Assembly (NCBI RefSeq): GCF_019059575.1
Contig: NW_024882778.1
Coordinates: 62,001 to 126,000 of the forward strand
Origin: Amphibalanus amphitrite
Lineage: Eukaryota; Arthropoda; Thecostraca; Balanomorpha; Balanidae
Direction: 5' to 3'
Length of the DNA: 64,000 bases
The notes under the pieces were generated by a model. The model did no database searches and had not been told where the DNA came from. It worked only from the letters and a program-made list of their open reading frames with translations. Shown here one piece after another: positions 13,347 through 63,761 of the stretch. Each line of letters opens with the position of its first letter. The stretch's first letter is position 1. Position numbers and translations under genes: made by a program.

Positions 13347-14230
13347 TTAGCCCGCGCCCCGTTGGGCTCTGCCGAGCAACGCGCCCCGTTGGGGGGGGGG
13401 GAATTTGGCCCCCCTAAGATCTCGAGAACCACGCAACCTAGCGACAAGCGGCAAACGGTGATAGATAGCCCTATCAGGAAACTACCTTGTGACCCAATTT
13501 TATTGACCTAGGTCAAACCGATGACGTCACAGGTCAGGTCAAAGGTCAAATTTTCACCGTTTACAGGCATTTCAAGAAATGCGTTGTATAATCGAGTAAA
13601 ATGCATTTCATTGAAAATCATCGATGGGAAAATGTTCTTCAAACACATATTTTGCTATTTGAGGTCACTGATACCAGGTCAGGTCACAGAGTTCAGGTCA
13701 CTGGGGGGGGGGGGGGGTCACAGTATTGAAGTGTCGTGTGATACATGTTTTATGGTCCATTTTACATGACAAATGCGATTATGTGGGTCAAGCAGACTTT
13801 TGGGCCAGCTTAGGTCACGTTTTGGTCAAGGTCAGGTCAAGGTCAGGTCAAGGTCAGGTCAAGGTCAGGTCAAGGTCAGGTCAAGGTCAGGTCAAGGTCA
13901 GGTCAAGGTCAGGTCAAATTAGGTCAACTTTCAAAGTTGATATTTTGCATAAAATGGGTATCGATTCGATGCAGCTCGTCACGGGGAGTTCAATGGTGGT
14001 CTTTGTTTTGCCCTACGTGGTCAAGAATCGCTAAAAATTGAGTTCAAAGATTTGACGTCATCATTTTTGAACAGTTTTTTTTCGCTATAACTTGGCCAAA
14101 AAACGAGATATCGATCTGAAATTTGGTATGTATATAGAAGAGCACAGGGACTATCATATATTTCCGTTTTTTGGATTTTTTTTTTGGATTTTTTTTTAGT
14201 TTTTCTAAAAAAAAATCAATTTTAAACGGT
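13347..14230. mobile_element. piggyBac-like MITE, CGCCCCGTTGG subfamily, one end lost
   Basis: TTAG is followed by CCCGCGCCCCGTTGG, a spacer, then CGCGCCCCGTTGG again before the G-tract / AATTT loop / C-tract. This is the two-word end. The text then follows the copy at 19137 almost base for base until near 14220, where it stops matching, so the single-word end is missing. An 11-bp tandem repeat is expanded inside (13824-13916). Confidence 0.8.
13824..13916. repeat. 11-bp tandem repeat GGTCAAGGTCA, about eight units
   Basis: GGTCAAGGTCA is repeated about 8.5 times without a break. Every unit contains TCAAGGTCA, the extended half-site known to be bound by FTZ-F1/SF-1 and ERR type nuclear receptors, and overlapping AGGTCA direct repeats. 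The sister copy (19608-19646) has only about three units. Binding is inferred from sequence alone. Confidence 0.85.
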
Positions 14231-15480
14231 GAATGGATAATTACTCGGCCGATAAAATGTCCAAAAGTAGCGTGGTAGCTGCTACATTCGAATAGGGTTG
14301 CGCTGGGGTTGCAGAAGTTGTTGGGTGATATCGTATGCAGCGCCTGTGGCCCAGGCCTCATCGTGACGTCATTAAGATAAAACAGGGTCGCGGCAATCCC
14401 CGAAAAGATAGCCTTAAACTATGAACACTTGCCGGCTATCTTTATTGCCCGGTATCGTAACGGTAAATATTCCTATCGTGTAGTTTAGCTACGTTGCAAA
14501 TCAATTTCGGAGCTCAGCATTTATCGGATCTCGGCAGCATTTTTCATGATCAAGAAGTTTGGCGTAAAATTTTGCAAGTGCAAGCTATTTTCTAATAAAA
14601 AGCGATTTATCTGTTGAATTTGTCTGTTGAATATGAAAATGTGCTATGCTGAAACAAGAAACAAAAAAGCACCAATATCTGGTTGTTTCTGAGTTCTGAC
14701 CTGCATATTGGCTACAGCTCATTGCATAACATGTGACGCAATTTTAAAACGCATGCCACAATGATAATGAGTTGAGTCATAAACATGACCATGAAACAGC
14801 GAAAGCAAGACGGAGATGGAAGCATTGTGAGTATTGACAAGCAGCATTGATTACGGCAGCTGTAAAAATACCAACATTTATTTCAAGGCATTTTAATTGG
14901 GACATTCTCTTTGCCATATTATCTGCTTCATCATTTTTGAAACCCGTAGCCCTTAAAATCTGCCTTCGCCCGCCACGCCAGTGTTGACGGTGTCGTCGAC
15001 ACCGTCGTGGGGGGGGGGGCGACGTCCACGTCGACGGCGCACGAAGACTTATGTAAACACATTCCCACCAAACCGAACTGTGGCAATGCTGGCACGCCTG
15101 TCTGCATCGTCGGCTGGCTGTATTAATGTCAGAAATTGTACCGTGTAAAATGTCCGAGATTGTACGGTTGTGCCGGCCGCCCGACCGAGGCGCCACCTAC
15201 AGTCGACCACCGCGCCGACTCGCAGCCGGACTGTCAGTCACTCAGTCTTGAGCCTTGCTTGTGTCAGTCACGGACCCGTCGACGCGATCATGATGCAGTC
15301 CCAGTCCCAGTCTGATACGCTTCAGTCGCGCACAGAGAGTCACGTTTGATTCGCGCTCGCAGTCGCGCTTCAGTCGCGTTCGCAGTCACAGTCAGGCGCG
15401 GTTAGTCACGCTTGAGTCTACGCGCTCGCTGACATCCTCATCGATCGGACTTCGTGTGGAATGCAAAAGTGCCAGAACCT
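14231..15480. other. No gene recognised; CAGTC-rich patch
   Basis: 14990-15010 holds the near-palindrome ACGGTGTCGTCGACACCGTC before a G-run. 15220-15430 is a GC-rich stretch of irregular CAGTC/CAGTCGCG repeats. There is no convincing coding frame. Confidence 0.4.
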
Positions 15481-16290
15481 GAACCCTTTCGTTGACTCGC
15501 GCCCTGCTGGGGGCTGTTTGAACACGCCCCCCTGTTTTTTTTTTTTTTGGCAGGCCTTATCACACATCTTTTCTGCACATGTTGAGAACATTTTAGACCC
15601 AGGTCACCAGGTCACTCAAGGGCAGGTCACCAGATCACGTCAAATGACCACACCTTATAAAAATTTCAATATCTGCCATAGCTACACCGATTGGCCGAAC
15701 GCTTTGAAACTTTCAGCGATTGACAAGTGTAGTAGTAGTATATGTAAGTACAAAATGTATGTCTCGGAATTTGTATATCCGTGACCTAAGGACAGGCCAA
15801 TTTTGCGGCCTCTCAGTTGATAGTCAATTGGAAAAAATAAATGCGCCTATTTTTGACGCACGTCATTCTAAAACTGGAAACTGGCGACCTTGACCCCTCT
15901 TTAGTTCCCTGAGATCATCCCAGGTCACGACTGGTATCTAACGTTTTTTTGCGAATAACTTTTGATAGAGGCAGTTAGAGCTTAGAGTGATGAAAACGCC
16001 TTAGAAGTGTTCCGCTCGGCGATACGGATCGTCTGACATAACATGATGTTGCAACATGACCTTTTCGGTCAGGTCATGATCCTGACCTGAGATCAAATTT
16101 TCAAGTTGACCTTTCAAGGTCAAATTATCGTTCATTCGATTGGCCTTGACGAGAAGAACATGATGCCGGTAAAAGTAAGCTCGTGCAAGGGTTGAGTCAA
16201 AAGTTATTGCAGAAAAACTGTTTCCGCAAAAATCGTCTATTTTGGCAGCTTTTGCACCCCTGCCTTACAGACAAAACCATTGATCTTAGG
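15481..16290. mobile_element. Diverged AGGTCA-rich TTAA MITE fragment
   Basis: CGCGCCCTGCTGGGGG, the loop CTGTTTGAACACG and a C-tract form a single-word end. The following text (CTCGGAATTTGTATATCCG, GTGACCTAAGG) matches the interior of the copies at 44117 and 54156. The TTAA flank and the second end were not found. AGGTCA and TGACCT sites are frequent. Confidence 0.6.
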
Positions 16291-16559
16291 TCAACTCTGA
16301 GATTGAGAGAATTACTCAGAAAGAGCATTAAGAGGGCTATCAAATGCGCTTCTCAGCGGCGCCGTAGCGCCGCGTGCAGCTTGGCGCGGCCACATGCGCG
16401 TTCCGCTGTGGACCAAAGTATTGTTGTAAGTACCAGCGATGACTACATACAATTTCATCGTGGTGAAACGTGTCACTGAGGGCTCATCAAAAAATAAAAA
16501 TGTCGGGTGTCGAGTGGAGTGGAGTGAAAAGGACATAAGAAAAGACAGGAGAGAGATAG

Positions 16560-17664
<1,105 letters not shown>

Positions 17665-18300
17665 TTAACCCGGCAGTTGCTGGGGTATTTCGCCAACCGC
17701 CGTTTGCAGGGGGGGGGGGGGTGCGTTAAACGCCCCCAGCCTCGAGAACCAATAGGCGCATGGCGAAACGCACGAGGCGGCAAACGAAAAAAAGCGATGA
17801 GACGCTTCAGATGAGTACTTAAAGGTTGAATTTCGAGGTCACAGGTCGGGTGAAGGTCAGGTCAAACACCTGAAATAAGGCTTTCAGTAGCATGGACTTC
17901 AGATGTTGAACGTTCATTGTGACATGTATGATTAGATAAGTGAAACTTTTCAATATAAAGGTACTGTATTACAGAAAGCCTTCGCAAAACCAGGTTTTGC
18001 GAAGGCTTTCAATAATACAGTACTTTTATATTTAAAAAGTTTCACTTATCTAATATCTAGTCATAAATGGTCTTCAGAACCTCGTAATGGGTGCCTCTCG
18101 TGATACACTCTGTCAAAACTGCTCACAATCCTTCATAAAAGGCCTAAAGAGTGTCAGATCTATGTATGGGTCAGTCAAACATAAGCCAGGGTCAAGGTCA
18201 GGTCAATCAGGTAGGCACATATCCCCGAAAATCAAAACTGGTATTCGCAGTCTATGACACATGTTTTATGGGTAATTTGGGGCGTAGAACATGATAGTGG
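17665..18300. mobile_element. piggyBac-like MITE, GGCAGTTGCTGG subfamily, one end
   Basis: TTAA at 17665-17668 is followed by CCCGGCAGTTGCTGGGG, a spacer, CCGCCGTTTGCAGG, then a G-tract, the loop TGCGTTAAACG and a C-tract. This is a two-word end. AGGTCA repeats follow. The text fades near 18300 and no partner end is visible. A palindromic element sits inside at 17931-18054. Confidence 0.65.
17931..18054. mobile_element. 124-bp near-perfect palindrome (foldback insertion)
   Basis: ATTAGATAAGTGAAACTTTT and, reversed, AAAAGTTTCACTTATCTAAT border arms of about 60 bases that meet at GCAAAACC/AGGTTTTGC. Only a few mismatches break the symmetry. It interrupts the MITE at 17665 and is probably a tiny foldback transposon. 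Confidence 0.8.
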
Positions 18301-18466
18301 CATTCTTTTTATTATACGAGAGGCTCGAGGGAACAACAAAGATCCCTCCGTTTCGTTGTAAGATCGGATTATCACCAATTCGCCACGGCGCGGCATTTCG
18401 TGATCATTTTCAAGGGTTCATGAAGGATAGGTAACTGTGTTGTCTTTCTGTCTTGAACGTCCCTAG

Positions 18467-19136: not shown

Positions 19137-20317
19137 TTAGCCCGCGCCCCGTTGGGCTCTGCCGAGCAACGCGCCCGGTTGGGGGGGGGGCCATTTTGGC
19201 CCCCCCCCTAAGATCTCGAGAACCACGCAACATAGCGACAAGCGGTAAACGGCGTTGGATAGCCCCAACGGGGAACTACCTTGTGACCCAATTTTATTGA
19301 CCTAGGTCAAACCGATGACGTCACAGGTCAGGTCAAAGGTCCAATTTTCACCGTTTACAGGCACTTCAAGAAATGCGTTATAAAATCGAGTAAAATGCAT
19401 TTCATTGAAAATCATCGATGGGGAAATGTTCTTCAAACACATATTTTGCTATTTGAGGTCACTGATACCAGGTCAGGTCACAGAGGTCAGGTCACGGGGG
19501 GTCACAATATGAAAGTGTCGTGTGATACATGTTTTATGGTCCATTTTACATGACAAATGCGATTATATGGGTCAGGCAGCCTTTGGGGCCAGCTTAGATC
19601 ACGTTTTGGTCAAGGTCAGGTCAAGGTCAGGTCAAGGTCAGGTCAAATTAGGTCAAATTTCAAAGTTAATATTTTTGCATAAAATGGGTATCGAATCGAT
19701 GCAGCTCGTCACGGGGAGTTCAATGGTGGTCTTTGTTTTGCCGTACGTGGTCTAGAATTGCTAAAAATTGAGTTCAAAAATTTGACGTCATCATTTTTGA
19801 ACAGTTTTTTCGCTATAACTTGGCCAAAAAACGAGATATCGATCTGAAATTTGGTATGTATATAGAAGAGCGCTGGGACTATCACATATATTCCGGTTTT
19901 TTCGAAATTCGGAAAATTTTGGATTTTTTCAAAGTTTTTCTAAAAAAATCAATTTTTTGAATTTTTTTTGGTCAAAAACCAAAAATTTTGAAAATCCGAG
20001 ATAGCAGTTTTGTAGCGCCGCTTTTTGTCTACTAGACCATATAAAGAACTTTGAAATTGCTTGATAACTGTAGATTTGGTGAGCGTTTCAAGATTGCATG
20101 TTTTTTGCTCATTTTTGCTCGAACATGACCTCAGTTTGACCTCAATAACTCCTGACCTAAGGTGACCTAAGACTTGAAATTTGGTGTGAAGGTGTCAAAT
20201 TGATGCCCGGGAAGGTACTGAAAATTTGGCGGCGCTGCGCGCCGCCGTTTTCTTGCTATTCAGGAAAAACCACAGGGGGGGGCCAAAATGGCCCCCCCCC
20301 AACGGGGCGAGGGTTAG
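19137..20317. mobile_element. piggyBac-like MITE, CGCCCCGTTGG subfamily, complete
   Basis: TTAG at both ends (19137-19140 and 20314-20317) takes the place of TTAA. The left end is the two-word type: CCCGCGCCCCGTTGG, spacer, CGCGCCCGGTTGG, G-tract, CCATTTTGG, C-tract. The right end, reversed, is single-word: CCCTCGCCCCGTTGG, G-tract, CCATTTTGG, C-tract. The interior has about three GGTCAAGGTCA units and TGACGTCA. There is no coding frame. It is nearly identical to the copy at 13347 over their shared part, so it is probably young. Confidence 0.88.
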
Positions 20318-20718: not shown

Positions 20719-21621
20719 TTAACCCTCGCATGTGTAGGGGGGGGGGGGGGTCGGATGGACCCCCCCATGGTTTTTCGCGAATAACTCGCGTAAAAAGCGG
20801 CCGATCGCGACGAAACTTTCAGTACCCTCGCATTGATCAATTTTACACCTACCCTGAAAATTTCATGACCCTGACTTAAATGACCTTTGACCTGTGACCT
20901 CTTTTCCGAGACCATGTTTGGCCGGAATCGCGATTTGGCGTACGTCGGCTCGCATTAGCCGCGCGTTTGCAAGCTTTTCGTGGTTTCAAACGTTCAAACA
21001 TGTGATGTGATGTTGCTCCCATGCATTAGGGTGGGTGTCAAGGTCACCTGAAGGTCAGGTCAGGTCATTGACCTTTGGTGACCTCGGGTGACCTCGGTTA
21101 ACTTTTTCGAGTTTTACATGTTTCTAGGCTAGTTTTTGGAGCTGAATTCGAATTTAGCAACCATTTGAACATTTACGAAGTAGTTTTGGTGCCTTCGTAA
21201 CATGTTACGAAGCTGTCAGAGGCGGTTGACACGTACTACGAATACCCGTCACGACGCCTACTGGTTGACCTGACCTGACCTGACCCGACCTGGTCTAAAT
21301 TCTTAAAGACATCATCTGTGATCAAAACTAACACGATATTCGTGATCAGCACCCCGAAAAACCCCTTAGCAGCCACACTTTACGACTTTCTAATAGGTCC
21401 CGATTTTCCCGACTTTGGGTCATTGACCTGACCTGGAAGGTTAACCAATGACCTAGGACCGTAAAATTGGGTATCATCGGCTTCCTCTCGTCACGGGCAA
21501 CACGCTCGTTTTTTCCGCGAAGCTCTAGCTCGATCAGGGGCCAAACGGCAAGGGGGGGGGGTCCAACCGACCCCCCCTACACATTAGAAGCTGGAAAACG
21601 CCGCACACATGCGAGGGTTAA
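20719..21621. mobile_element. piggyBac-like MITE, CGCATGTGTAGG subfamily, complete
   Basis: TTAA lies at both ends (20719-20722 and 21618-21621). The left end is CCCTCGCATGTGTA, G-tract, TCGGATGGA, C-tract. The right end, reversed, is CCCTCGCATGTGTGCGGCG, spacer, ATGTGTA, G-tract, TCGGTTGGA, C-tract. The first 13 bases of the ends are identical. The interior carries many AGGTCA/TGACCT sites, including a TGACCTGACCTGACC run. It has no coding capacity. The copy at 62441 is nearly identical. Confidence 0.92.
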
Positions 21622-25818: not shown

Positions 25819-26770
25819 TTAACCCTCGCCCATGTAGGGGGGGGGTTGGTGCAACCCCCCCCTGAGGTTTTTCGGAAATAGTGCAAAAACGGCGGCGCGC
25901 AGCGCCGCCAAATTTTGGGTACCTTATGGGGCAAACCTTGTGCATCTTTTGATAAAAAAAAAAATTTGACCGGGTCATGTCAGGTCACGGAGTTATGACG
26001 TCACAAAGGGAACAGCCTCCGGCCGGATTTTCGCAAACTGAGTGCCAACGCCCGAGGTTTCCTGCCCGTGGTACGGACATCGGTTGATGGATCGTGATGA
26101 AACTTCCCATGCATGTTGGGGCAAGTATTGGCTATCATATGGTATAAGAAACTTGACCGGGTCAGGTCAGGTTACGGAGCTATGACGTCACAAGAGGAAC
26201 AGCGTCCGGTACTATTTTTGAAAAGCGCCCGAACCACTATTTTGCTAATTCTTGTCACCTCGATGGGAATATGCAGCAATATTAGCTTCTATAGGGAGCA
26301 AATGGACCTCCCAAATCCAAAAATACAATCAGATTTCAAAAATTTAAATTTTGATTTTTCGAATTTCTGCCGCCGACTGTGACCTTGCCGACTTCCGGCG
26401 CTCCCAACGCGCCATTTTTAGAGCTAGGGAAACGAAATACATACCAAACGATAGAGAATTGATAAAGGAACACGAAAGTGAAGGTTTCAAGTCGATATCT
26501 CCCACCGCTTTGCCGCAATCGCCGCGGAAAGTTGAAAAAGTCTATTTTTCCGAAAAATTTGACCTTTGACCGGTCAAAAGTAGGTCAAATGTTGACCTAG
26601 GACCAAAAAATATACCACCAATCGCGAGATCTCGGCGAGAGCAATCCGTTGGTTTTTTCCGCTAAGCTCTACAACGCTCCGTTTTCAAACGCCAAGGGGG
26701 GGGGGTCGCACCAACCCCCCCCCCCTGCATGGGCGAAGGTGGCAGATCGCCGTTTACGGGCGAGGGTTAA
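25819..26770. mobile_element. piggyBac-like MITE, CGCCCATGTAGG subfamily, complete
   Basis: TTAA at 25819-25822 and 26767-26770. The left end is single-word: CCCTCGCCCATGTA, G-tract, TTGGTGCAA, C-tract. The right end, reversed, is two-word: CCCTCGCCCGTAAACGGCGA, spacer, CGCCCATGCA, G-tract, TTGGTGCGA, C-tract. The inside has a 186-base-spaced direct duplication (GACCGGGTCA(T/G)GTCAGGT, then TATGACGTCACAA). It lies in the receptor intron, 43 bases from the exon 3 acceptor. Confidence 0.9.
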
Positions 26771-28044: not shown

Positions 28045-29009
28045 TCAATGTAGCACAGCATGACAATAGAGCTTACTGAGCCAAAAGCGTCTCAGTTTTG
28101 ATCTGAAACGGAGATCCCCTGAATTGATTGCTTCAATGATGCTATTGGGGCTTTGTTCAAGTCTTCTCAGAAACTTATAAATAAGTTTCCTGAACACGCT
28201 TTCACAATTCAGCACTCTAAAATATGCACATGTCATACTCGTACTCTCAAATTTCGATAACCCGATAAGTCGTTTAAGAAGGTTGTGATAGCTCACAATG
28301 AGTCGATTCATAGTTGCCTTCCTATAGTTCCACCACAGGTGTGCACAGTACATCGATGAACAGTAAGTCTCAAATAGTTTCAGTTTGACATCTACAGTAC
28401 ACATGTGAAACATCCTTATGATCATATTCCCTCTGACAAATAAACCTTTGTTCTGATTGGCAATATCTAGATCATCAGTCATGTCTTCCTCTATGATATG
28501 CCCAAGATATTTAACTTTATCAACACATACTAACGGCATGGGTCCTAACATAAAATCAGGTATTTTGACATTCCTCATCCCCTTCGATCTACATGACATT
28601 GCAACACTTTTTGAACTATTATACACAACATCATTTGCCATACCAAATTCATGGCACACATTCAACAGTTTTTGCATCCCTGCACTTGATGGAGAGATAA
28701 GCACCACATCATCAGCATACATCAGGTGATTGACCAATTTCCGACCTATAAGACAACCTATGCCCATTTCATTTAATCTGCTAGACAACTCATCTATAAA
28801 CACGTTGAAAAGGGGAGGTGACAAGATACCTCCCTGCCGGACACCATTGGACACTTTAAACTTTTCTGAAAAAGTGGATCCCCATTTAATGACCATTTCC
28901 TGCTCTTGGTACCAGAACGCAAGCAATCTTAGGTACACATAAGGAACACCTCTCTCTGAAAGCCTCTGAAAGAGAATTTTATGATTAACACGGTCAAACG
29001 CCTTGCTGC
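28045..29009 (-). mobile_element. 5'-truncated LINE, reverse transcriptase C-terminal part
   Basis: The minus-strand frame begins in the middle of the RT (KAFDRVNHKILFQRLSERGV at 29004) and runs uninterrupted to a stop at 28045. It passes NGVRQGGILSPPLFNVFIDE, the catalytic MYADDVVLISPS and the thumb-like region. The endonuclease and the first RT blocks are missing because of 5' truncation, which is common for LINEs. A 3' UTR of about 110 bases and a TATC tail follow. The clade is not assigned (CR1/Jockey-like by feel). It is inserted in the TTAA element and has no stops, so it is fairly young. Confidence 0.88.
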
Positions 29010-33078: not shown

Positions 33079-33170
<92 letters not shown>

Positions 33171-41950: not shown

Positions 41951-42422
41951 CTGAAAAACAATAGACGTTCTGCTTTAGTCCGACCCGTTTCATTTAGATA
42001 CTTCACAATGCATGGGTGGCCCCATATTTAAAGCGATAGATAAAGACGACATTCAGCGCGGGCCTATTCCAGTATGCTAAGACCGTTCTACGAAAGACGC
42101 AGACGCTCGATTAGTTCGCATTGGGTCGTTCGACACAGAAGATTGCTCTGTGGATCTTTGGGTTAGTGTAACAGATACGAGCGTTTCCACGACGCTGACG
42201 GCAATAAACTCCACTGAGCCGGTGTAAAGTTCAGGTGAGTCCCATGAACCGGACGGCCAAAATCAATACGCTGCAGAGCTTATGCGCTTTGGCATTACAA
42301 AGAGTCCCAATCGCTGCTACCCCATACCCTTCCGCTGCCCGTACCCGACACCAGCGTTCGGCATCCATATTCCGCACTCAGACCCGCCTTCCATGGGGCC
42401 TGCATCTCATTGATCATCTCAC

Positions 42423-45135: not shown

Positions 45136-46197
45136 AATGTTCCATTTATTTGCAAACATACACTCTCTATGTAGAACCCTGTATTTTTATTTTCCACGTA
45201 TCTACATGTTTAGATGCATTAACCTCTGAACACCAAAGGCTTTAAGAGGTTAATGTTAGCTGATATCTTATGGTGGAATAATCACGTAAATACTGCACAC
45301 TCATAAGAGCGTCTTCCGTAGCTGAAAAACAGTTTGTGGGCATTGTTCTAGTTCACAATGTTTCCCAATTACTGATACAACTTCCTGACAGACCGTTCTT
45401 GTAAAACGATAGCATTGTGTCCGGCCGACCACGGTTATGCCGTGTTGTCTCGCAAATAGTGTTCACTAAAGCAGAAGCCATGAACAGTAAACACGATGTC
45501 ATGTTGTGGGGACCGAAGAATCTTGGTGGGGACATGATCCTGCCAAGTGCCAACATCGGCTCCTCTTTGTATTGAGATGGTCAAATGAAAATAGGCTGCT
45601 TTTCAGCCATTCCGACCTTGTATCTAATTGTTCATTTTCCTTGCGCAGTTAGCGTCATGACCCGTTAAGGCAACACGCAAATACACGTCGTTAATTGAGG
45701 ACTCTGGATGATTCCCTTCCTGTTTGCAACTGCGGAAAACAACGCCATGGCGCTATCGTTGCCATTTTTAGGCGAGCGCGTTCGCATGAGGTGCCTTTCC
45801 TGATCAGTTCTCACAGCGAGCGGCGCGCGAACCAGGCCGGTTTTAGGTCAAACAAACACAGTAGCGACACTGGCTGGACCGTACATAAGCGAGACACAGG
45901 GCTCCGATGAGTCAGATTGTCCTGTGACCGTCAGAGAGGCTGTTTGTCCGCTGTGTTGTGCACTGAACAGTGAACAGGATATACCTGCAGAAGAGGAGAA
46001 TTAAAAGGAAGAAGGCGTAGCTTCAAACGAAGACACAGAAAAAAAACACAAAGAAGTAATCAACGAGGAAGCAAGAGAAAGAAAACGCAAAAAATACAAA
46101 TTGAACAAAAAAGAAGCGAAGAAAAAGAAAGCAGCAGTTTTACATTAGCGGAGCCCGTCTGCAACACTCCAGCCCCTGATAGTCACCGCCGTCCGTG
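45136..46197. other. Upstream region of the carbonic anhydrase gene
   Basis: No coding exon recognised. 45990-46140 is A-rich (AAAAAGAAGCGAAGAAAAAG) and probably 5' UTR or promoter-proximal. No clear TATA box could be assigned. Confidence 0.4.
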
Positions 46198-47127
46198 ATG
46201 TCTCAGCCGCTGCCCGCGCGGCAGCTGGTGCTGTCCCTGCTGCTGGCGGCCTCCGTGGTCGGCCAGGAGGCGCCGGTGGACCTGTGGAGCTACAGCAGCC
46301 CGGCCAGCTGGGGGCGCACGTTCCCGTTCTGCTCTGCCCCGCTGCACCTGCAGTCGCCGATCGCGCTCACCGTGGACCGCGTGGTGCTGACGCCACCGCT
46401 GAAGGTGATTGCCGACCCCGGCGCGCACGACTGGGTGGTCGAGGTCGGTAACGATGGTCGCCGGCTCGAGCTGAACGTTACCATGGACCCACGCGCGCGT
46501 GGGGCTTCACCTACTTACCCCATTCAACTGGTGATCGATAACGCGCCGCTCCGGGGGACCTACAACCTCACGATGCTGCACTTCCACTGGGGTGATCAGT
46601 TCGGGTCGCCCGGCTCCGAACACGCGGCCGGCGACAAGTTCTTCGACGCTGAGGCGCACTTCGTCTTCTTCGACGCGTCGTTCCCGAACCTGGAGGCGGC
46701 GCAAGAGGTGCCCGGCAAGGTGGCAGTCGTTGCTGTCCTCCTGAATCGCGAGGGCAACTTCAGCGGGCCGACGTTCCCGACGTTCGGCTTGCAGAACAAC
46801 ATGGATCAGCTGGCGACCCGTGACAGTCACTTCTCGTTCCGCGCCGACCTGCGACAGCTGCAGGCGCTGCTGCGCGTCGTGCTCTCCCGCATGTTCACCT
46901 ACTTCGGCAGCCTGACGACGCCCCCGTGCACTCCGGGCGTGGTGTGGATGGTCTCCAGCGTGGAGACCGACATCAGCGGGAACTTCCTAGACTGTCTGAC
47001 CACTCAGGTGTACCAGGACCGCTTCAGGCTGCAGCGCCTCGTCAACAACCGACGTCCGCTGCAGCAGAGGTCCAACCGAGTCGTCTTCAAGCAGATCAGC
47101 CTCGGCTCGGATGGTCTGCTAGCTTAG
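46198..47127 (+). CDS. Secreted alpha-carbonic anhydrase, single exon
   Basis: 309 residues from ATG to TAG. An in-frame GTG lies directly before the ATG and was not used as the start. Residues 1-22 are a signal peptide. The alpha-CA fold follows: WSYSSPASWG, LQSPI, the LHFHWGDQFG block, DAEAHFVFFD, FGSLTTPPCTPGVVWMV and NNRRPLQ. The three zinc ligands are His128, His130 and His154; the gatekeeper pair Glu141/Thr240 is present. Cys45 and Cys244 fit the disulphide of secreted CAs. The enzyme interconverts CO2 and bicarbonate outside the cell. Oddities: the His proton-shuttle position reads Arg (NDGRRLEL), and Thr-Pro-Gly follows the PPC motif. N-glycosylation motifs lie at 93, 123 and 187. There is no transmembrane tail. 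A gene without introns is unusual for this family and suggests a retrocopy, but the frame is intact. Confidence 0.93.
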   Translation: MSQPLPARQLVLSLLLAASVVGQEAPVDLWSYSSPASWGRTFPFCSAPLHLQSPIALTVDRVVLTPPLKVIADPGAHDWVVEVGNDGRRLELNVTMDPRARGASPTYPIQLVIDNAPLRGTYNLTMLHFHWGDQFGSPGSEHAAGDKFFDAEAHFVFFDASFPNLEAAQEVPGKVAVVAVLLNREGNFSGPTFPTFGLQNNMDQLATRDSHFSFRADLRQLQALLRVVLSRMFTYFGSLTTPPCTPGVVWMVSSVETDISGNFLDCLTTQVYQDRFRLQRLVNNRRPLQQRSNRVVFKQISLGSDGLLA

Positions 47128-47907: not shown

Positions 47908-48701
47908 CGAGGGGCGTTCAGAAAGCTACGGGCCCGACCATGAAGGAGCAGAGAGATACAGCATCGACTCATAAGTTCATTTATTCAAATAAACACCGTT
48001 AAGACAAACACATTTCGCGCAGCGCTTCGCGAGAGCCCTCAAGGCCTCCATAACCAAGTGGGTTTTGGACCCATCCTGCACGTCCAAGACGGCTGATTTC
48101 GTCTCCCTGCTGTTAGCGAGGTTGCCGCTGCTAATTTTCTTATGTTGGGGAAGAGGTGGCAACCACTAACCGGAGTGTGCAAGGTTCGGAGAGAAAAAAG
48201 TGGATGCGACAACAACTCGAAGCTCATCGCTTCACTGTTCGTCATCCCGCCCATGTACGCAGGTGCGTGGTCGCGGATCAGGTGCACACTTTACGTCAGC
48301 TTCCCTATAGCCTCTCCTCGATGTTTATCGAATGGACGCACATCATCAATTGTGTGCCCCTGTTTTGGAAAGTTGACGAGCGGAGGGGGGTCGCATCGAC
48401 CCCTCCCCCTGCCAGGCCGTGTTATGAAAAATGCCCAGGGCGAGGGTTAACGCTTGGTGCCTTTTCTGCACTAACTACTATGAAACGAATCACTGCTCTC
48501 TTCTGGGCGTCGCCCATCCTATCCGAAATGGCGAACTATGCTACGAATAGAAGCCCGAATCAATCACAGAAGAGAATTAATGGCCACTTACTTAATTTGC
48601 GTAAGTGGACATCCCAATAACACATCATTTAACACACCGCCTTGCAGGCCAAAATTCCAACTCCTTCATTGTTCGGCCCGAAACTTTTTGAACGCCCCTC
48701 G
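47908..48701 (-). mobile_element. Internally deleted mariner, nested in the hAT element
   Basis: The ends CGAGGGGCGTTCAGAAAG and, reversed, CGAGGGGCGTTCAAAAAG are flanked by TA (47906-47907 and 48702-48703). On the minus strand an ATG at 48517 starts MGDAQKRAVIRFIVVSAEKA, like mariner N termini. Further on comes a C-terminal block (HPLFSLRTLHTPVSGCHLFP) that resembles the HPPYSPDLAPSDYHLFP region around the catalytic Asp. The middle of the transposase is lost: full elements are about 1.3 kb, this one is 794 bp including a later insertion. The frame is also shifted between the pieces. It is dead. Confidence 0.85.
48345..48450. mobile_element. TTAA MITE end nested in the mariner
   Basis: Reversed, it reads TTAACCCTCGCCCTGGGCA, spacer, ACGGCCTGGCAGG, G-tract, GTCGATGCGA, C-tract. 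This is a two-word end of the same subfamily as the fragment at 2420. Only one end is present, so either a one-ended fragment was captured or the rest was deleted together with the middle of the mariner. Confidence 0.7.
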
Positions 48702-54155: not shown

Positions 54156-55144
54156 TTAACCCACGCCTCCCTTTAACACACTTAAGGTTTTTCGTAAATA
54201 GCGGAAAGACTGCTGCGTGTGGCAACGCGAAATTTAGCAGGACCATTTCCCCATCAATGTTACACATTTTTTGCAAGTTTGAACCTCCTACCTTTCAAGG
54301 TCAAGTCACCAGATGACTTCGAATGACCCGACCTCAAATCATTTTTTTTTGCAACTTTGTCACCGTGTCAGAGCTACAATAGATGACAGAGTCCTGTGAA
54401 AGTTTCAGGATGTAATGAGGTCATTGGTAGCTACAATTATATTTCTCAGAATTTTGATAACGGTGACATAAAATCAGGTCAATTTCTTGACCTCCCCGTT
54501 AAAGGTAAGTCAATGGAAAAAAAACAACTGCCCGATTTTTTTCTTACTAAACCGCGTCGGAATGGCCTAATATACCATGAATGAGTTCATATACGCTAAC
54601 CTTGACTACCTTGAGGCCTTTTTTGCTCTTGGGCAACTGCAAGGTCATGTGACGTCATCAAAGGTTACCAAAGGTTTTTTTCTGCTAATAACTCCTTACA
54701 AGAACGAGATGCAGCCGCGTGGATGGTATTATTGTGTTCAGCTCGTCAAGGCACATCGAATGATATGCATGATGACCTTGAGGTTACGTAGGTCAACCTT
54801 TGACCTTAACCCTTCGAGGTCAACATTTATATGTTTCGATGCGGATCGACAAGAGCGGATCGATGATGCAATTAGGTTGTTCCTAACTTCCTAGCTTGTA
54901 TAATTCAAAAGTTACTGGACAATCTCTTCATAATAAGCGCCGCTATTTTGACTTCTTTGACCCATGTGACGTCATCTTTGACCTGACCTGAAAATGATCT
55001 CAGTAAAAATTGTAGACCTGGTCCGTGCGTACCCCGTGTCTTTTACCGCTTGTCGCTATTTTGCTTCGTTCTCGAGATCTTAGGGGGCGATTCCCTCCCC
55101 CCCCCCGTCGGAAACTATGGTGGTGCAGTCAGTGCGCGGTTTAA
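54156..55144. mobile_element. piggyBac-like MITE, old copy related to the one at 44117
   Basis: TTAA at 54156-54159 and 55141-55144. The left end is worn (CCCACGCCTCCC, no hairpin). The right end, reversed, keeps the two-word layout (ACCGCGCACTGACTG, spacer, CCGACGG, G-tract, C-tract). The interior aligns with 44117-45135 all along but with many changes, so it is older. AGGTCA-type sites are partly lost. Confidence 0.8.
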
Positions 55145-55241: not shown

Positions 55242-55716
55242 TTAAAGGGACCCTCCCACCTTCAAAAAAGTTAATGAATTGGCATGAAAGTGATGTCGCT
55301 CGGTTCAGAAAGAGCAAAAATGAATATCTACCAAATTTCATCGAAAAATATTCACCGGTTTTCAAGATATTAGACTTTTACTTTTGTTTACTTTTTGGGA
55401 TCTCCGCTGTTCCTAGCGACTTTATTTGAAAGTGCGGCATTTGTTGCGCGCAAAGCAGCATATACCACCGCGTGCTGCCAAACGTTTTAGTAAAAGATTT
55501 AAAAATCGTTAGATCTCCGCTGACGTCACAAATTCTAAGGGGGCATACCAATGCATTAGCCCCTTAGAATCCGAAAACTGCAAGTTTGAAATTCGATATC
55601 TCCGAATTAAAGCATTTTTCGATGTTGTGAATGCCCAAACCGGTATTTTCAGGCCATGGCCACCAATTTGGCTATCTCAACTCAAAACTAATGTTAAGGT
55701 GGGAGGGTCCCTTTAA
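55242..55716. mobile_element. TTAA element, AGGGACCCTCCCACC family, short copy
   Basis: TTAA (55242-55245), AGGGACCCTCCCACCTT and, at the right, AAGGTGGGAGGGTCCCT, TTAA (55713-55716). 475 bp, non-coding. A 13-base inverted pair inside (AATTCTAAGGGGC / GCCCCTTAGAATC) lies near 55530-55570. The right TTAA is shared with the next element. Confidence 0.88.
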
Positions 55717-56896
55717 CCCGCGCCCCACTGGGGGGCTATTTATAGCCCCCCCTCCCGTTTTTCTGCAATAACTTCCAAACCGCTTGACGGATCGACGCCA
55801 AACTTTCAGTACCTTCGGCTGCATCAATTTGACACCTTGTGTCAAAATTTGAACTTCGTAGCTACCAGAGGTCGGCCGGAAATGACGTCAGAGTGACGTC
55901 ATGTTCGTCCGATTTCGACGCAAAACATTGAACCACGGCAATCGCTCCCAAGAGCTCAGTTTTTAAGCTAGATCCAATTTCTTTGCATGAAAGGACTCAG
56001 AATTGACCGCGGTACCAAACTGCCATCTCGGATTTTCAAAATTTTGAAAATTTCGAAAATCTTATATAATAATATTCAAAATTTATATTTTTACATTTTT
56101 TCAAAAAAATTTTGACTTTTCGAAAAAACCGGAATATATGTGACAGAACGCATGATTATGACTAACTCTAGCATGTTTTAGCTAAATATCTTCAAAAATG
56201 GCCAAATTATACGCATTATTGCAAAAAATTCACAATTATTAATTTTTCAAATCAATTTTTCAGTACGTATTTGACATCGTACACCAATATAAATGGCACC
56301 ATCGTGTTCCTGAGCTCAAACTGCATCCAATAGACACCTTTTTTCTTGACAAATTTTAACTTCAAAATTTGACCTTTTTTGACCTGAAAGTGACCTGACC
56401 TAAGCTAAATTCGACTCAAAATGACCTCGAATGACACAGATGACATCAAATTCGAAATCTATGGCCTAAATGGACCATAAAACATGTGTCACATGACCGA
56501 CGCATGATATAATATTTTCGTGACCTGTGATGACCTGACCCTGACCTGAAAATCAAAGTACAAGTTTGATACCCTCAAGGTATCTAGAGCATTTGTTCAC
56601 GAGTGTGGAAACCAAAAATGAGCCTGATCTGACTTGTAAGACGGCGGCCAGAGCCCAAAATGTGAACAAGCCAAAGTGCTAATAATTTTTACTTTGACCT
56701 GACCTGTGACGTCATCGGTGACCTCGAGGTCAATGAAATTAGGTTTCGCTCGACAGTTTTTTCGGGGCTATCAGACGCCGTTCGAATTTTGACGATCGGC
56801 CCAGTAGTTTCGGAGTTAGGAGGGGGGGGCTATGAATAGCCCCCCCCCCCCCCAGTAGGGCGTATTATACACAGACCCCAGTGGGGCGCGGGTTAA
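55713..56896. mobile_element. piggyBac-like MITE, CGCCCCACTGG subfamily, complete
   Basis: TTAA at 55713-55716 and 56893-56896. The left end is single-word: CCCGCGCCCCACTGG, G-tract, CTATTTATAG, C-tract. The right end, reversed, is two-word: CCCGCGCCCCACTGGGG, spacer, CGCCCTACTGG, G-tract, CTATTCATAG, C-tract. The interior is related to 40102-41294 (ATGACGTCAGAGTGACGTCA, AATATATGTGA). No coding frame. Confidence 0.9.
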
Positions 56897-57860: not shown

Positions 57861-60800
57861 TAGCCGCGTTTACATAGGGTTAGTTGCCAGATAGATAGTG
57901 GAATTACGATACCGAGACACTTATTCCACTAACGAGACATTTCAGGCACATTCCGCTGGTTCTGACGACTTATGCGGCCTTCTGGCCGGATAGGTCGTCA
58001 GAACTAGCGGAATGTGCCTGAAATGTCTCGTTATTGGAATAAATGTCTCGGTATCGGAATTCCACTACCTGGCAACTAACCCTATCATCATCATCATCAT
58101 CATATTTATTTGACATCCTTTGAGGACAAAACAAGGAGAACATATCTTCATAACATAACCGTGACACATGAAGATACAAACACAGCACGGCACAACAAAG
58201 TCACGTTTGCAAAGCACGGGCAGCTTTTTACATCAGGCGGACTAGGAGAATCAGTTTGGATGTATTGTTACAAGCAGCCTTACTAGCTGCCATGACTCGG
58301 CGCTGTTGCTTTCCATCAGCCAGCTGAGCGAGTCCGCAAGGCCACACTCGGGCCTGGGCGTGTGCACCCAGTCTCCGTGTATATGACCGCTGGCAGCCTC
58401 CATTACCCTCATGAAGTTTCCCCCACATAGCGACAGTAGATGGCACACAATAGAAGCAGATGTTTCCGCGAATCTCGCATTGGTCGCCAACTGGGCCAGG
58501 CTGCTCACCAGCACACAACGGAGGCGGTGCTGGCCACGAAAAGCGTTTTGAGTAGCGCGAAAAATAGACCGCCGAACGAGAGCTTGTACACTTGGGATGC
58601 GAAGTGCCGCCATTAGTGCGGAGTGGTGGGCAGTGCGCGGTAGGCGTAGCGCGCTTTTGACCGCCGAGGCTTGCCAGCCTTCGAGGCGAGCAATATCTCC
58701 AGAGCTTAAAAAACAGACCTCACATCCATAAATCAGAACAGGAGCGACAATCATCCGCCATAGAAATGCCTTATCAACAGCGGAGAGGTGCTGATTAAAC
58801 ATGCCGGCCGGCGTTAGGCCAAAGAACGCACCCCTGCTCCGCTGAATTCGGGCAGTCACCTGATCAGCACCGTGTAGTTGGGAGCGCAGCTCAACACCCA
58901 AGTGTGTGGTTTCCTGTCGGTGCTTCAGGATCTGTCCACATAGCTGCCACTGAGGCGTCCGAGAGAGGAACTCGGCCCCGAATATAAAGCTGTGACTCTT
59001 GGTCAAGCTTTGGTTCACATGTACAAAATCTATCCTCCACAACACTGAGAAGGAGGAGACGATATGAAGCATTGATTGAAGATCGCGTGCGCTACTAGAC
59101 ATAATCAGAATATCATCAGCATATGCAACTGCTGGGATGTGGTGGCCATACAGCGTGGCGCCCAAGCGACAGTCATCGAGCTGTTGGATGAGCGGGTATA
59201 AAAACATATTGGTGAGGCACGGCGATAAAAGCGCACCCTGTCTCACTCCTCGGCGCACACAGAAGGCGTCTGACAGCTTCCCACCAAAACGTACTCGGGC
59301 TGACAGGTGAGAGTACCAATAGGCCAGAAGCGCCCAGCTCCGGCGTGGGAGGTGCTCACTCGCTCGGAAGAGGACGCCATCATGCCACAAACGATCAAAA
59401 CATTTCCTAGCATCGAGGTTAGCTGCAAACAGCGGGAGTTTATGGCATAGGTAATGTTGCGCGGTCTCGTGTACAAGCATAGACGCTTCGCTGGTGCCCC
59501 TATGCCCTAAGAACCCAAACTGAAGTTCAGAGGCCTCAAATGACGTGTCGATCTCTTCCTGAAGGATCAGTTCCAGAAGTTTGGAGATAGTCGACACGAG
59601 AGAGATGGGGCGGTAGCTATCGGCAGAGTCGGGGTCCAGTCCGGTCTTCTTCATGATAGGCACCACTGTGCTGCATGTGAAACTGACAGGGACACGCATT
59701 TCAGCGAGGCAGGCAGAGAGTAGAGAGGCGATAGCCTCGTGCAGTGGTCCTGAAGAGCCGTAGACAAGATGCTCAGCGGTGACGCCGTCCGGTCCTGGTG
59801 ATGCGTTGCGGTTGATTTGCGGGATCAAGCGAGCTACATCTCCTGCAGTGACGCGCTTAGCGGGGCCAGGATCTGCTTTCGCCTGGGACAGCAGGGCTTC
59901 TACTCGGGTGCGCACATCATCTTGGGCTGCAGAGAGGGTGTCCTCGTCCGTATGAATGGGGCGGAAGTGGGCCTCGAGGCTGTCCGCCGTGAGCGAGGAG
60001 CGCAAGCCGCCCGAGCCACGTCGAGCCTGCTCTACACGGCGCCAGAACGAATTGATGTCCTTCTTCTGACGCAGCGATGACAGGAGATTTGCGCTGTTAT
60101 CAACCTGGGCACGTGCTGCATCGACCCGGGCCTGCCTGTATGAACGACGCGCAACTTTGAAGCAGTTGTGCAGGACCGTATTCCGTGGTCGGCCGGCGTG
60201 AGTCCAAATGCGATGCCACAGGCGCGCCCGGTCCCGTGCTGCCGACACTGGAGGGCTCCACCAGGACTTTGGCGGTCTTCGGGGCCGGGAGCAGCCGGCC
60301 TCAGCTGCAGCTTGATGGATGACTGACGTCAGGAGGCAGTCTATCTGATCGGCGCTGAGGTTTGGCTGGACCCCTGTCTCCAGCTGCGTGGAGAGCAGTT
60401 CACAGTACCTTTGATTCCTGTCGGAATTGTTCCAATCCAGTACCGTGCGGTGAGAACTGGAGTGGTCTCGCGGCGCTGGTCTTTCCCTCTCTTCGCCGTT
60501 TATTTGGAGCAGAAGAGTACATGTTATAGGCAGATGGGGGCTGAGGTTGTCATAAGAAGGCGGGATGATAGAACATGACAGAAGCTGTTCATCTGCAAGT
60601 TTGCCAGGCACGATGATGTGGTCGATGTGGGACGTGTGACCGCCGCGTTCATACGTGAAATTCACTGGCTGAGAGAAGCGGAACTCAGCGACTGTAAGGC
60701 TTCTTTCATCCAGAAGTCGCTGGAATGCTTGGCTGAAGGGGGTGAATCCGCGCAGCTTTGCCCACTGGCGAGGACGGGTTGCCGACGGGAGAGGACAGTT

Positions 60801-61182
60801 GAAGTCTCCGACTAGCATGAGCGGCGCGGAAAACCTATGCGTGTCTATGAGGGCTTCAAGACTAGCGCACAGGTCCATATAAAGTTCTAGTTGATCCGGA
60901 GTCCCAGTGAAGTAGGGCATGTAGCAGCCAACTATGGTGAGACGCGGTGCTCCGCCACACACCATCTGCACTGCTAAAAGTCTATCGTTCTCACACTGTA
61001 GTTGGGAGAATGAGAATCGGCTGTCTCGGCGGCATATCATGGCCGTCCCTCCATGCCGGCGCCCCTCGCCAGCCCCGGGTGGCAGCTCCATTGCAAATGT
61101 CTGAAAAATGTCAACGTCACCCACGCCAAAGCTCCCAAGAACACCACTCGGTAAAGTAAACGCGGCTATGTAAACGCGGCTA
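57861..61182. mobile_element. Foldback MITE with TAGCCGCGTTTACATAG ends, split by a LINE
   Basis: TAGCCGCGTTTACATAG (57861-57877) is matched reversed at 61166-61182. Next to the left end lies a hairpin of about 210 bases (about 57875-58086) whose arms run from ATAGGGTTAGTTGCCAG to the reverse CTGGCAACTAACCCTAT. Without the LINE these parts join into one short, fully self-complementary element of about 240 bp, so the LINE at 58087-61165 is a later insertion at its edge. Confidence 0.75.
58087..61165 (-). mobile_element. LINE with endonuclease and reverse transcriptase, 5'-truncated, frame intact
   Basis: One minus-strand frame runs about 970 codons without a break to the stop at 58251. Order: the rest of an APE-type endonuclease (LVGDFNC, about residue 128; SHIDHIIVPG, about 189), a linker, then RT with SPGPDGVTAEHL, SYRPISLVSTISKLLE, LDARKCFDRLW, RRGVRQGALLSP (about 648) and the catalytic YADD (about 692), then a C-terminal region. 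Numbering starts at a TTG at 61196 inside the flanking MITE; the true start codon and the first part of the endonuclease are missing. The 3' end has a TGA-repeat tail (58083-58102). The clade is unassigned (CR1/L2/Jockey group). The intact frame suggests a recent insertion. Confidence 0.92.
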
Positions 61183-62440
61183 ATGAAAAACACCAAACTT
61201 GTGCGATGGTATGTACAATGGTGGTATCGGTGGAATTGAGCAGAGTGTGTGGACGATCACACATAAAGTGGATTATAGTGGATTTATAGTGGATTCACCA
61301 AGTTGTCAGAGGTAGAACAGCTCATAAGAGGCTATTTTATTAAATGAAATTTGACAAATTCTCATTTCTGATTACTTACGAACTCTTTTCCTCGATCTCA
61401 TTAATCAAGATAGTTTAATTATGAAGGGAGCGCAAACTACTCATAAATCTCACTTAGAAAGTTTGGCTTTCATGGCTATTTATAATCCTTAATCAACAAC
61501 TAAGATTGCATCATCGAAGCATTTGCGTGTCTGGCACCCAATGTAGCACATCACACTGACCATCTATCATCCTTAATTATGCATTGTGTTCCTGCATCAC
61601 GACGGTCCATAATGACTGCAATTTGCAAGTAACCTATGATAAGTGCAGGCTAATATGTGTTGAAAGCAGAACAAAAAAAGTCAAGCATTATTGGGTTGGA
61701 AACCAACTGAAACAAATAACGCATGCATGTCAAATAAACGCCGCTGCCCGCTACGTTATGACCGTGGATAAAGTCTTGCATATCTAATGTATATGGCTAT
61801 TTTTTCTTTCGAGCATAAGGAACTATTGCTCACTTTAGTGCAAATGCCTGTGAACATCAGACAACAAACACAGTTCCTTTGAAGTTGAGTCAGCCATCTG
61901 TCACTGAAGCTGTGGACACATGAGCAGCATCTGTGAGCACGGCTGAACACCTGTATTAACGAGTACGGCTGTAGCTATCGGACCACTCCTGGTATTGTTA
62001 TCCCATTGTTCTGCCCATTGCTAATTACTATCGACCAGCATTCTGGGTAGGCATACCGTTAGCCAATGAGACAAAAGACAAGGCAGAAGCGGGAACCGGG
62101 CTGCTAGGTGAAACACCACCGCGCCGGTCCCGCCGAGTTTGACCGTCAGCGCCATCGGGCGCGATGTTTTTTTTTTTTTAGATAACGCTTCATTGCAACC
62201 CGATTATGTTTGTTATGCTAAAAGCAGGAAATGAAGCTCATTGGAATTGCAGCAGATTCCGGATCCATCTTAAAGTGATTGGTTGGTATAGTAGTATAAC
62301 GCTGACTCATTCAGTAGTATAAAAAAGAACTTTAAAACGTCTAACCGCTGATAGATGACGTCACTTATTTCCTTTAGTTCATCATCACTGTTTTAGCAGA
62401 GTATTATTTTAGAAAAAAAAGAAACACAAACGCACACATT
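61183..62440. other. No gene recognised
   Basis: AT-rich DNA with a GC-rich patch at 62085-62165 (CGCGCCGGTCCCGCCGAG). No element ends, tRNA or coding frame could be supported. Confidence 0.4.
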
Positions 62441-63761
62441 TTAACCCTCGCATGTGTAGGGGGGGTCGGATGGACCCCCCATGGTTTTTTGCGAATAACT
62501 CGCGTAAAAAGCGGCCGATCGCGACGACACTTTCAGTACCCTCGCATTGATCAATTTGACACCTACCCTGAAAATTTCATGACCCTGACCCAAATGACCT
62601 TTGGCCTGTGACCTCTTTTCCGAGACCATGTTTGGCCGGAATCGCGATTTCGCGTATGTCGGCTCGCACTAGCCGCGTGTTTGCAAGCTTTTCGTGGTTT
62701 CAAACGTTCAAACATGTGATTTGATGTTACTCCCGTGTGTGTCAAGGTCACCTGAAGGTCAGGTCAGGTCATTGACCTTTGGTGTCCTCGGGTGACCTCG
62801 GGTCACTTTTTCGAGTTTTACATGTTTCTAGGCTAGTTTTTGGAGCTGAATTCGAATTTAGCAACCATTTGAACATTTACGAAGTAGTTTTGGTGACTTC
62901 GTAACATGTTACGAAGCTGTCAGAGGCGGTTGACACGTACTACGAATACCCGTCACGACGCCTACTGGTTGACCTGACCTGACCTGACCCGACCTGGTCT
63001 AAATGCTTCAAGACATCATCTGTGATCAAAACTAACACGATATTCGTGATCAGCACCCCGAAAAACCCCTTAGCAGCTGTTAATTCCCTGGAGGGATCTT
63101 CTGGTACCGTTAATTATAAATATATAGTTTCTTTATATTTTCTTGTAGTCGGAGTCTTCTTGAGTCATAGAGAAAGAAAGGACATCTTCTACGGGGTTTA
63201 TTGCTTGAGTGACAATCTCATAGGCGGTATCTTAACGCAAAACATTACCGTTTCAATCGTGGTCACCAGCAATTCCTTATCGTAATATGCACTGTCTACA
63301 TTATATGAATATTTCTCTTTAATGTTTCATATTGGCTATTTCCTTAATATTTTCCCCCGTTACGAAGTTTTTGTCCTCCTTACTAACTAACTAAAAACCT
63401 TGACCTTTCTTCAATCAAAATATTTACAACAATTAAAACACTTCGCTCGCGTGATCATTTCCGGGAGCGCTCTCGGTAGAATATTCAACAGCAGTCACAC
63501 TTTACGACTTTCTAACAGGTCCCGATTTTCCCGACTTTGGGTCATTGACCTGACCTGGAAGGTCAACCAATGACCTAGGACCTTAAAATTGGGTATCATC
63601 GGCTTCCTCTCGTCACGGGCAACACGCTCGTTTTTTCCGCGAAGCTCTAGCTCGATCAGGGGCCAAACGGCAAGGGGGGGGGGGGTCCAACCGACCCCCC
63701 CCCCCCCTCCCCCCCCCTACACATTAGAAGCTGGCAAACGCCGCACACATGCGAGGGTTAA
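62441..63761. mobile_element. piggyBac-like MITE, CGCATGTGTAGG subfamily, split by an LTR-like insertion
   Basis: TTAA at 62441-62444 and 63758-63761. The ends and interior are nearly identical to the copy at 20719-21621, except for a 413-bp insertion at 63078-63490 and longer C/G runs at the right hairpin (63674-63718). Non-coding. Confidence 0.92.
63078..63490. mobile_element. Solo-LTR-like insertion (LTR retroelement fossil)
   Basis: Compared with the empty copy at 20719, this MITE has a 413-bp extra piece starting TGTTAATTCC and ending AATATTCAACA. Short 5-base repeats (GCAGC / GCAGT) lie at the borders. TGTT...AACA ends and a 5-base duplication fit an LTR of the BEL/Pao or Ty3 type. A TATA-like stretch lies near 63113. 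No internal genes are present, so it would be a solo LTR. It is younger than the MITE that holds it. Confidence 0.65.

Follow-up and report, generated by a model that had tools for sequence, protein, structure and literature searches.

The window analysed here is a stretch of 64,000 nucleotides from the barnacle Amphibalanus amphitrite (assembly GCF_019059575.1, contig NW_024882778.1, positions 62,001 to 126,000 of the forward strand). It contains a group of elements whose two ends differ in layout and carry matching, family-specific words and palindromes. These are very probably non-autonomous elements of the piggyBac superfamily, with asymmetric ends of the Trichoplusia ni (T. ni) type that co-evolve with their transposases; the protein side of this reading extends from one linked transposase. 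The first-pass annotation of the window had reported seven copies with both ends readable, each with a short word once at one end and twice at the other. All seven were found at the reported positions (Table 1), and one word stood against two in 7/7 copies.

In the left end (LE), TTAA is followed by CCC, one word and then a core set between a G-run and a C-run. The right end (RE) carries the word twice, and its palindrome unit lies about 27 bp further in than at the LE. The first G of the G-run was found at bp 14-15 after TTAA in 7/7 LEs and at bp 40-43 in 7/7 REs, an offset of 26-29 bp. Six of the seven copies had TTAA on both sides, as the first-pass annotation had claimed for all, while both flanks of copy 19137-20317 read TTAG on the + strand, and so did the lone end at 13347. 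The LE of 40102 begins with CCT, and the other six LEs with CCC. TTAA and CCC are marks of the piggyBac superfamily, and asymmetric ends with an internal palindromic repeat at both sides are those of its T. ni-type (fourth) group.

The agreement between the ends of a copy, also part of the earlier claim, was high and imperfect. The core was the same at both ends in one copy, and it differed by 1-2 bases in the other six (e.g., TCGGATGGA/TCGGTTGGA). The RE outer word was partly different from the LE word in 25819 and 40102, one base off in 19137 and longer in 44117.

Palindromes at the ends and other features of the window

The letters between the G-run and the C-run had been read as hairpin loops in the first-pass annotation. 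They proved instead to be the inner half-sites of one palindrome. Among 20 LE cores from the window and the genome, 52/60 of the outer-three base pairs were complementary. Shuffling the letters 5,000 times gave 16.7 on average and 30 at most, and dealing the right halves among subfamilies 20,000 times gave 21.0 on average and 37 at most. The 17 RE cores had 39/51 complementary outer-three pairs (shuffle maximum 23). These results indicated that each end contains one palindrome, with the G and C tracts as the outer half-site and the family-specific core as the inner half-site. A search of the window against Rfam gave no match at gathering scores. RE cores of the TCGC class frequently ended in ..CGA (TTGGTGCGA, TTGTTACGA, TTGGTACGA, CGGGTACGA) whatever their left half, whereas LE cores showed more symmetry, so that recognition of the inner RE half-site may differ.

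Besides the seven copies, one degenerate copy and a number of single ends lie in the window. No partner was found for the single ends at 13347, 17665 and 48450. Further coding and repeat features are given in the last rows of Table 1.

Table 1. Elements, single ends and other features of the window (window coordinates; CRD, cysteine-rich domain)
Feature	Position	Strand	Core (LE/RE)	Remarks
Copy	19137..20317	-	CCATTTTGG	TTAG both sides; RE at 19137 (+), LE at 20317 (-)
Copy	20719..21621	+	TCGGATGGA/TCGGTTGGA	Word TCGCATGTGT; TTAA flanks
Copy	25819..26770	+	TTGGTGCAA/TTGGTGCGA	80-88% identical to termini of transposase-encoding element
Copy	40102..41294	+	CATTTTTTTG/CATTTTTTG	Word ends GGCGGT
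Copy	44117..45135	+	CGGATATCCG/CGGATGACCG	Word GCGCACCGAC; 2-bp insertion in RE outer word
Copy	55713..56896	+	CTATTTATAG/CTATTCATAG	Word GCGCCCCACT
Copy, second of its subfamily	62441..63761	+	TCGGATGGA/TCGGTTGGA	One A breaks RE G-run
Example LE palindrome	20737..20766	+		Putative CRD-dimer binding site, by position relative to piggyBac (PMC7351741)
Example RE palindrome (copy 20719-21621)	21552..21577	-		About 26 bp further from tip than LE palindrome
Degenerate copy	54156..55144	+		LE palindrome lost, RE palindrome damaged, TTAA flanks retained
Lone two-word end	13347..13414	+	AATTTGG	TTAG; core resembles damaged CCATTTTGG
Lone two-word end	17665..17737	+	TGCGTTAAACG	Word GTTGC/GTTTGC
Lone two-word end	48385..48450	-	TCGATGCGA	Inner word CCTGGCA
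Degenerate lone one-word end	15492..15532	+		Like TGTTTGAACA subfamily; begins TTGA, not TTAA
Palindrome of truncated two-word end	2446..2470	+	TTGATGCGA	Outside span 13347-63761
Long interspersed nuclear element (LINE)-like element	58251..61196	-		981-aa open frame; endonuclease and reverse transcriptase domains
Second reverse-transcriptase fragment	28045..28938	-		297 aa
Carbonic anhydrase domain, eukaryotic type	46195..47127	+		Nearly complete; single open frame of 310 aa
Receptor ligand-binding (ANF_receptor) domain	42295..43059	-		Start of domain, in frame
Tandem repeat	3495..3979			54-bp units x9, 97% alike, open in several frames
(GA)n run	16549..16948			About 200 units

Matching of the two ends across the genome

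The end patterns matched the forward strand of the 807.6-Mb genome 17,776 times for the LE and 16,588 times for the RE. The reversed-pattern controls gave 0 forward and 0 reverse matches for the LE, and 0 forward and 2 reverse matches for the RE. Forward one-word ends with TTAG numbered 323, against the 17,776 with TTAA. The reverse-strand counts of the two patterns (59,494 and 57,235) were not used because the same site was repeated several times in them. The LE pattern of the TCGCATGTGT subfamily was balanced between the strands (969 and 998). Provided that both strands are alike, as in this subfamily, the genome would hold about 33,000-35,000 ends of each kind, and at about 1.1 kb per copy the group would make up 4-5% of the 807.6 Mb. 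Being non-coding, present in thousands of copies and, in one subfamily, sharing their ends with an encoding element, these elements can be classed as miniature inverted-repeat transposable elements (MITEs). At 0.9-1.3 kb, the window copies are long for MITEs. Adjoining elements were seen to share a single TTAA, one being inserted exactly at the flank of the other (L081:2515-2518; L072:3571-3574; L065:2679-2682). On contig C1, 84 LE sites carried 26 word spellings, which correspond to roughly twenty codes, as some spellings are variants; 75 of the 84 had the commonest core of their own word.

The matching of the ends was tested on 14 subfamilies with one pair each, six from the window and eight from fetched loci. 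The paired loci came mostly from the start of one contig plus the window and form a non-random sample of one genome. Loci L040-L043, L046, L051-L053, L055-L061 and L064 were skipped as repeats of the same sites, L047, L054, L062 and L068 had no usable LE/RE pair, and for the TGGTTGCCA subfamily the LE core was used in the shortened form seen in L067. The similarity of the LE word to the RE outer word was 0.90 within the own subfamily and 0.54 to other subfamilies. For the RE inner word the values were 0.90 and 0.36, and for the core 0.86 and 0.46. In 20,000 permutations the observed mean was never reached, whether for the outer word, the inner word or the core. The own RE was the best match, or joint best, for the outer word in 14/14 subfamilies, for the inner word in 13/14 and for the core in 13/14. 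Word and core agreed completely in several subfamilies, e.g., TAAATTTTA and TGTTTGAACA.

The first-pass annotation had considered random pairing of left and right ends as the contrary case, which was not seen among pairable ends. In the first 350 kb of C1, where 14 LEs and 15 of the 16 lettered REs were entered, there were six convergent pairs 1.0-1.2 kb apart, with a common word in 6/6 and a common core in 5/6. Two adjacent copies account for a seventh "pair" at a distance of 4 kb, whose ends did not match. The six pairs are sites of fetched loci and carry no independent weight beside the 14-subfamily test. For the TCGCATGTGT subfamily, a convergent RE of the same subfamily lay within 6 kb of 76 of the first 100 LEs listed, at 800-900 bp in 69 of the 76; three neighbours had other orientations, and 24 LEs were without an exact partner. 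This pairing took in 93 of the 100 REs listed (C1-C16). Convergent LE/LE pairs numbered 0 (100 LEs listed) and RE/RE pairs 0 (45 REs, C1-C6), compared with 37 LE/RE pairs. The LE/RE asymmetry is therefore kept in the TCGCATGTGT copies counted. Their cores also differed between the ends in a fixed manner: the LE pattern had 1,967 matches with TCGGATGGA and 1 with the TCGGTTGGA of the RE, and the RE pattern with TCGGTTGGA had 1,867, these three combinations being counted for this subfamily only.

Word, core and flanks were then compared in 13 of the 14 subfamilies; the TGGTTGCCA pair was dropped, as its RE was not parsed. Between subfamilies, the LE word (0.58, shuffled 0.54) and the LE core (0.50, shuffled 0.50) were hardly more alike than shuffled letters, while the 40 bp inside the LE C-run were conserved (0.71 vs 0.54). 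The RE side gave 0.56 for the outer word, 0.54 for the core, 0.63 for the subterminal DNA and 0.64 for the spacer, all four without a shuffled baseline. The order was reversed when the two ends of one copy were compared: the word (0.91, others 0.57) and the core (0.89, others 0.52) agreed, while the subterminal 40 bp were no more alike than those of other copies (0.52 and 0.53). Recognition parts and surroundings thus behave oppositely, a double dissociation over 13 subfamilies. The similarities of LE flank and RE flank were correlated (r 0.79), which we counted as a sign of probable vertical descent. Core similarity followed flank similarity (r 0.49-0.68), indicating that core and flank share descent. 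Word similarity was weakly linked to that of the flanks (r 0.19-0.36), and word and core were nearly independent (r 0.18 at the LE, 0.01 at the RE). The correlation between the ends was 0.85 for the word and 0.79 for the core.

In three close subfamily pairs the word differed at 10/28 positions and the flanks at 25/400 (p 2e-5; cores 0/18), at 15/29 and 41/390 (p 2e-7; cores 5/18), and at 16/28 and 37/392 (p 5e-9; cores 3/19). In these pairs, picked after the fact for a flank divergence <0.15, the rate of word change was five to six times that of the flanks. Among 176 between-subfamily copy comparisons, flank divergence was <0.27 in 129, most of which are too distant for informative flanks, a divergence of about 0.25 being near chance for the aligner used. 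Against the rate, 8 of the 129 showed no significant word excess (A1-G1, A1-H1, A2-G1, A2-H1, A2-I2, E1-K2, G1-H1 and K2-E3). The 14 within-subfamily pairs had no word change in eight cases and one change in three. The remaining three, all of the CGGATATCCG subfamily, had 2, 6 and 7 differences in 28 positions; in the latter two the word exceeded the flanks (p 0.0008 and 0.01), mostly through one 2-bp insertion under ungapped counting. Between families, word change seems to come in bursts that affect three places at once; three pairs are few.

A transposase linked to one subfamily

The genome contained at least 116 matches to DDE_Tnp_1_7, and the surroundings of 42 loci were read. In three of the 42 the gene was bounded by such ends, giving elements of 3,971-3,977 bp. 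The LE, upstream, carried the word AGAACGCCTA (AGAACGCTTA in one copy) and the core TTGTATCAA; the RE, downstream, carried the word CGCACGACCA and the core TTGTTACGA. A frame of 646 aa was open in L071, and of the other two loci one had a stop and one an altered C-terminal frame. A 98%-identical transposase copy on C171, for which the gene alone was read, was open over its full length. The 646-aa protein of this one subfamily matched DDE_Tnp_1_7 (PF13843) with 235 bits, as expected of a transposase of the superfamily. It aligned with the T. ni piggyBac transposase (PDB 6x67) over residues 89-638, including the cysteines of the cysteine-rich domain (CRD) (E 2e-78), and with piggyBat (9c0f) over residues 93-538 only, outside the CRD (E 3e-30). 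The C-terminal Cys/His positions align with 6x67 and are kept in two paralogues, which suggests a CRD of the T. ni type.

A 948-bp copy next to one encoding element shared its TTAA and corresponded to the termini 1-391 and 3657-3971 of that element with 90-91% identity. Window copy 25819-26770 was 80% and 87.5% identical to the same two termini. Shared ends and shared descent thus link non-autonomous elements of the group with a piggyBac transposase. The likeness to piggyBac ends, which the first-pass annotation had pointed out, is now backed by a protein, since a piggyBac transposase of the T. ni type is encoded by elements with such ends.

Paralogues of the 646-aa transposase at about 34-65% identity were present in the genome. 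Paralogous transposases lie at C778:132769-134649, C702:42168-44031, C53:656871-658307 and C542:118728-119793, and on C33, C257 and C431. The strongest piggyBac matches, L009-L035, were rejected as partners, since their readable tips were of other kinds (TTAACCCATTA..., TTAACCCTTTA..., TTAACCCAGATC...) and had no G/C palindrome. No ends were found for L011, L012, L017, L018, L020, L033, L034 and L036-L038. An end pair 3.8 kb apart at L028 was misleading, as an element with a 604-aa frame sits there inside a CCATTTTGG copy. That element belongs to a second piggyBac family (L022-L032, e.g., on C103, C188, C913 and C1226) with 604-aa open frames, a length of about 2,681 bp and tips TTAACCCATTAGTGCCC. 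Its copies were 99.4-100% identical, and the family looks recently active. It was ruled out as a partner by its different tips. Viral contigs were scanned for the transposase and gave no relative; the LE pattern matched 33 stretches on them, none of which on inspection had a word and core of the group.

Recognition of the ends, alternatives and known systems

The layout, the abundance, the palindromes, the matched ends and the encoding element of one subfamily all agree with non-autonomous piggyBac-type elements whose ends co-evolve with their transposases. According to the structural account of T. ni piggyBac (PMC7351741), bp 7-16 are contacted by the DNA-binding domain and bp 17-33 are bound by the CRD dimer, and the sequence of LE bp 7-35 recurs almost unchanged at RE bp 34-63. 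In the same source, native piggyBac in cells was inactive with LE/LE, and RE/RE was excised without integrating. PMC12324416 gives terminal repeats of about 13 bp and an internal repeat of 19 bp, which lies 3 nt inside the terminal repeat at one end and 31 nt inside it at the other, an offset of 28. The positions of word and palindrome and their offset in the barnacle elements match those of piggyBac. By analogy with the solved complexes, the word (bp 4-13) would be read by the dimerisation and DNA-binding domain of the transposase core, and the palindrome of G-tract, core and C-tract would, judging from its position, be bound by a dimer of CRDs. Each half-site consists of a constant outer portion, the tract, and a family-specific inner portion, the core. 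One word-plus-palindrome unit stands at the LE tip, whereas the RE tip has an additional word and its unit lies about 27 bp deeper, where a second, structural dimer would be seated. A change of specificity would have to be followed at every word copy and at both palindromes. As one transposase must bind both ends, the ends would remain similar within each family, and the families would diverge from one another.

Some points weigh against this interpretation. The DNA contacts of word and palindrome are putative and assigned by position, and a transposase was assigned to one of roughly twenty codes. The two ends of the transposase-linked element match only in part (AGAACGCCTA vs CGCACGACCA, TTGTATCAA vs TTGTTACGA), so that strict equality is not needed, and strict matching is weakened. 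Furthermore, the paralogues at L036 and L079 (58% and 38% identical) showed no such palindrome in about 1.1 kb on each side, and the RE tip of this family should lie no more than about 0.6 kb from the stop. One truncated two-word tip stood at the edge of L036 and one LE at L074; both point away from the gene. Of the two options offered by the first-pass annotation, co-evolution with different transposases is the better on the evidence of the DNA, with the transposase linked for one subfamily only.

The other option was that the ends are kept equal by gene conversion, which copies one end onto the other and needs no changing transposase. The complete agreement of word and core in several subfamilies is compatible with it, and conversion over a patch of 30-40 bp could spare the flanks. 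We consider it highly improbable, since the subterminal DNA of LE and RE was as dissimilar in one copy as across unrelated copies, and two separate word patches would be needed at the RE. Conversion would also erase small fixed differences between LE and RE, yet the TCGCATGTGT subfamily, the only one counted, keeps them (1,967 vs 1). An exchange of interiors, in which new end modules took over an interior that already existed, as in the MITEs of corals (CMITEs), is unlikely. It would account for conserved flanks beside differing words, the homopolymer G/C tracts might serve as junctions, and PMC2872659 describes families of piggyBac-type MITEs that combine a common interior with different ends. 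In such an exchange, both tips plus the inner RE word would have been replaced and the cores left in place, while core similarity in fact tracks that of the flanks and the word is weakly linked to it.

The palindromes might alternatively act as extruded hairpins or cruciforms, recognised by their secondary structure rather than as double-stranded dimer sites. They are long inverted repeats with short centres, and a role of secondary structure has been proposed for piggyBac-like inner repeats (PMC12324416). Structure alone does not require cores that are family-specific and matched between the ends, and the CRD dimers of piggyBac and piggyBat bind their palindromes as bent duplex in the structures described (PMC7351741, PMC11707139). 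This explanation is very unlikely.

Within the favoured reading of ends that co-evolve with their transposases, a recognition-code arms race is possible, and we put it forward tentatively. Lineages may change the word to escape binding by thousands of non-autonomous copies with the old code, each new code then breeding its own family. The word would be a fast key, changing together at the LE tip, the RE tip and the inner RE site, and core and flanks would be slower. Burst-like change of the word would be given by such an arms race and likewise by drift of a new lineage's specificity.

Membership in the piggyBac superfamily, ends of the T. ni type and non-autonomous copies are known already. 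Matched family-specific words and palindromes at both piggyBac-type ends were not described among the matches listed in our literature search, which covered titles and the openings of abstracts with few subscription journals. The elements record change in the DNA recognition of a transposase while both ends stay in step. In one genome, roughly twenty word/palindrome codes can be read at both ends on a constant scaffold, whereas the solved structures described in PMC7351741 and PMC11707139 concern piggyBac and piggyBat. This is a natural dataset in which base changes at words and half-sites can be set against changes in the transposase. With it, one can test whether the families are orthogonal to one another and whether a transposase is pushed to new specificity by its non-autonomous copies. 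piggyBac is a widely used gene-transfer tool, and orthogonal pairs of CRD and palindrome are what designed two-protein transposases need; work on such a design used the piggyBac palindrome (PMC13405395).

Among known systems, the Acropora CMITEs are likewise piggyBac-type and non-autonomous, with TTAA flanks, differing terminal repeats and related interiors. Unlike the barnacle copies they are about 100 bp long, with about 1,600 copies estimated in A. millepora, and where PMC2872659 describes them it mentions no palindromic unit or matched variation. piggyBat of Myotis lucifugus belongs to the same superfamily, and its LE palindromes are bound by CRD dimers. Its RE, as described in PMC11707139, has no palindrome and its CRD a different fold, whereas the barnacle elements have a palindrome at both ends and their protein matches 9c0f only outside the CRD. 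The closest likeness is to piggyBac (Ifp2) of T. ni, of the fourth structural group (described in PMC8086355 and PMC7351741): a TTAA target, CCC tips, a terminal repeat of about 13 bp, a palindromic internal repeat that lies near the tip at the LE and some 28 bp deeper at the RE, a motif duplicated at the RE, and a transposase with DDE_Tnp_1_7 and an aligning cysteine-rich domain. The barnacle elements differ from it in that the palindrome begins 0-1 bp after the 13-bp repeat (3 bp in piggyBac) and consists of G and C tracts plus a family-specific core, and in the 26 word spellings, or roughly twenty codes, found in 84 LEs of a single contig.

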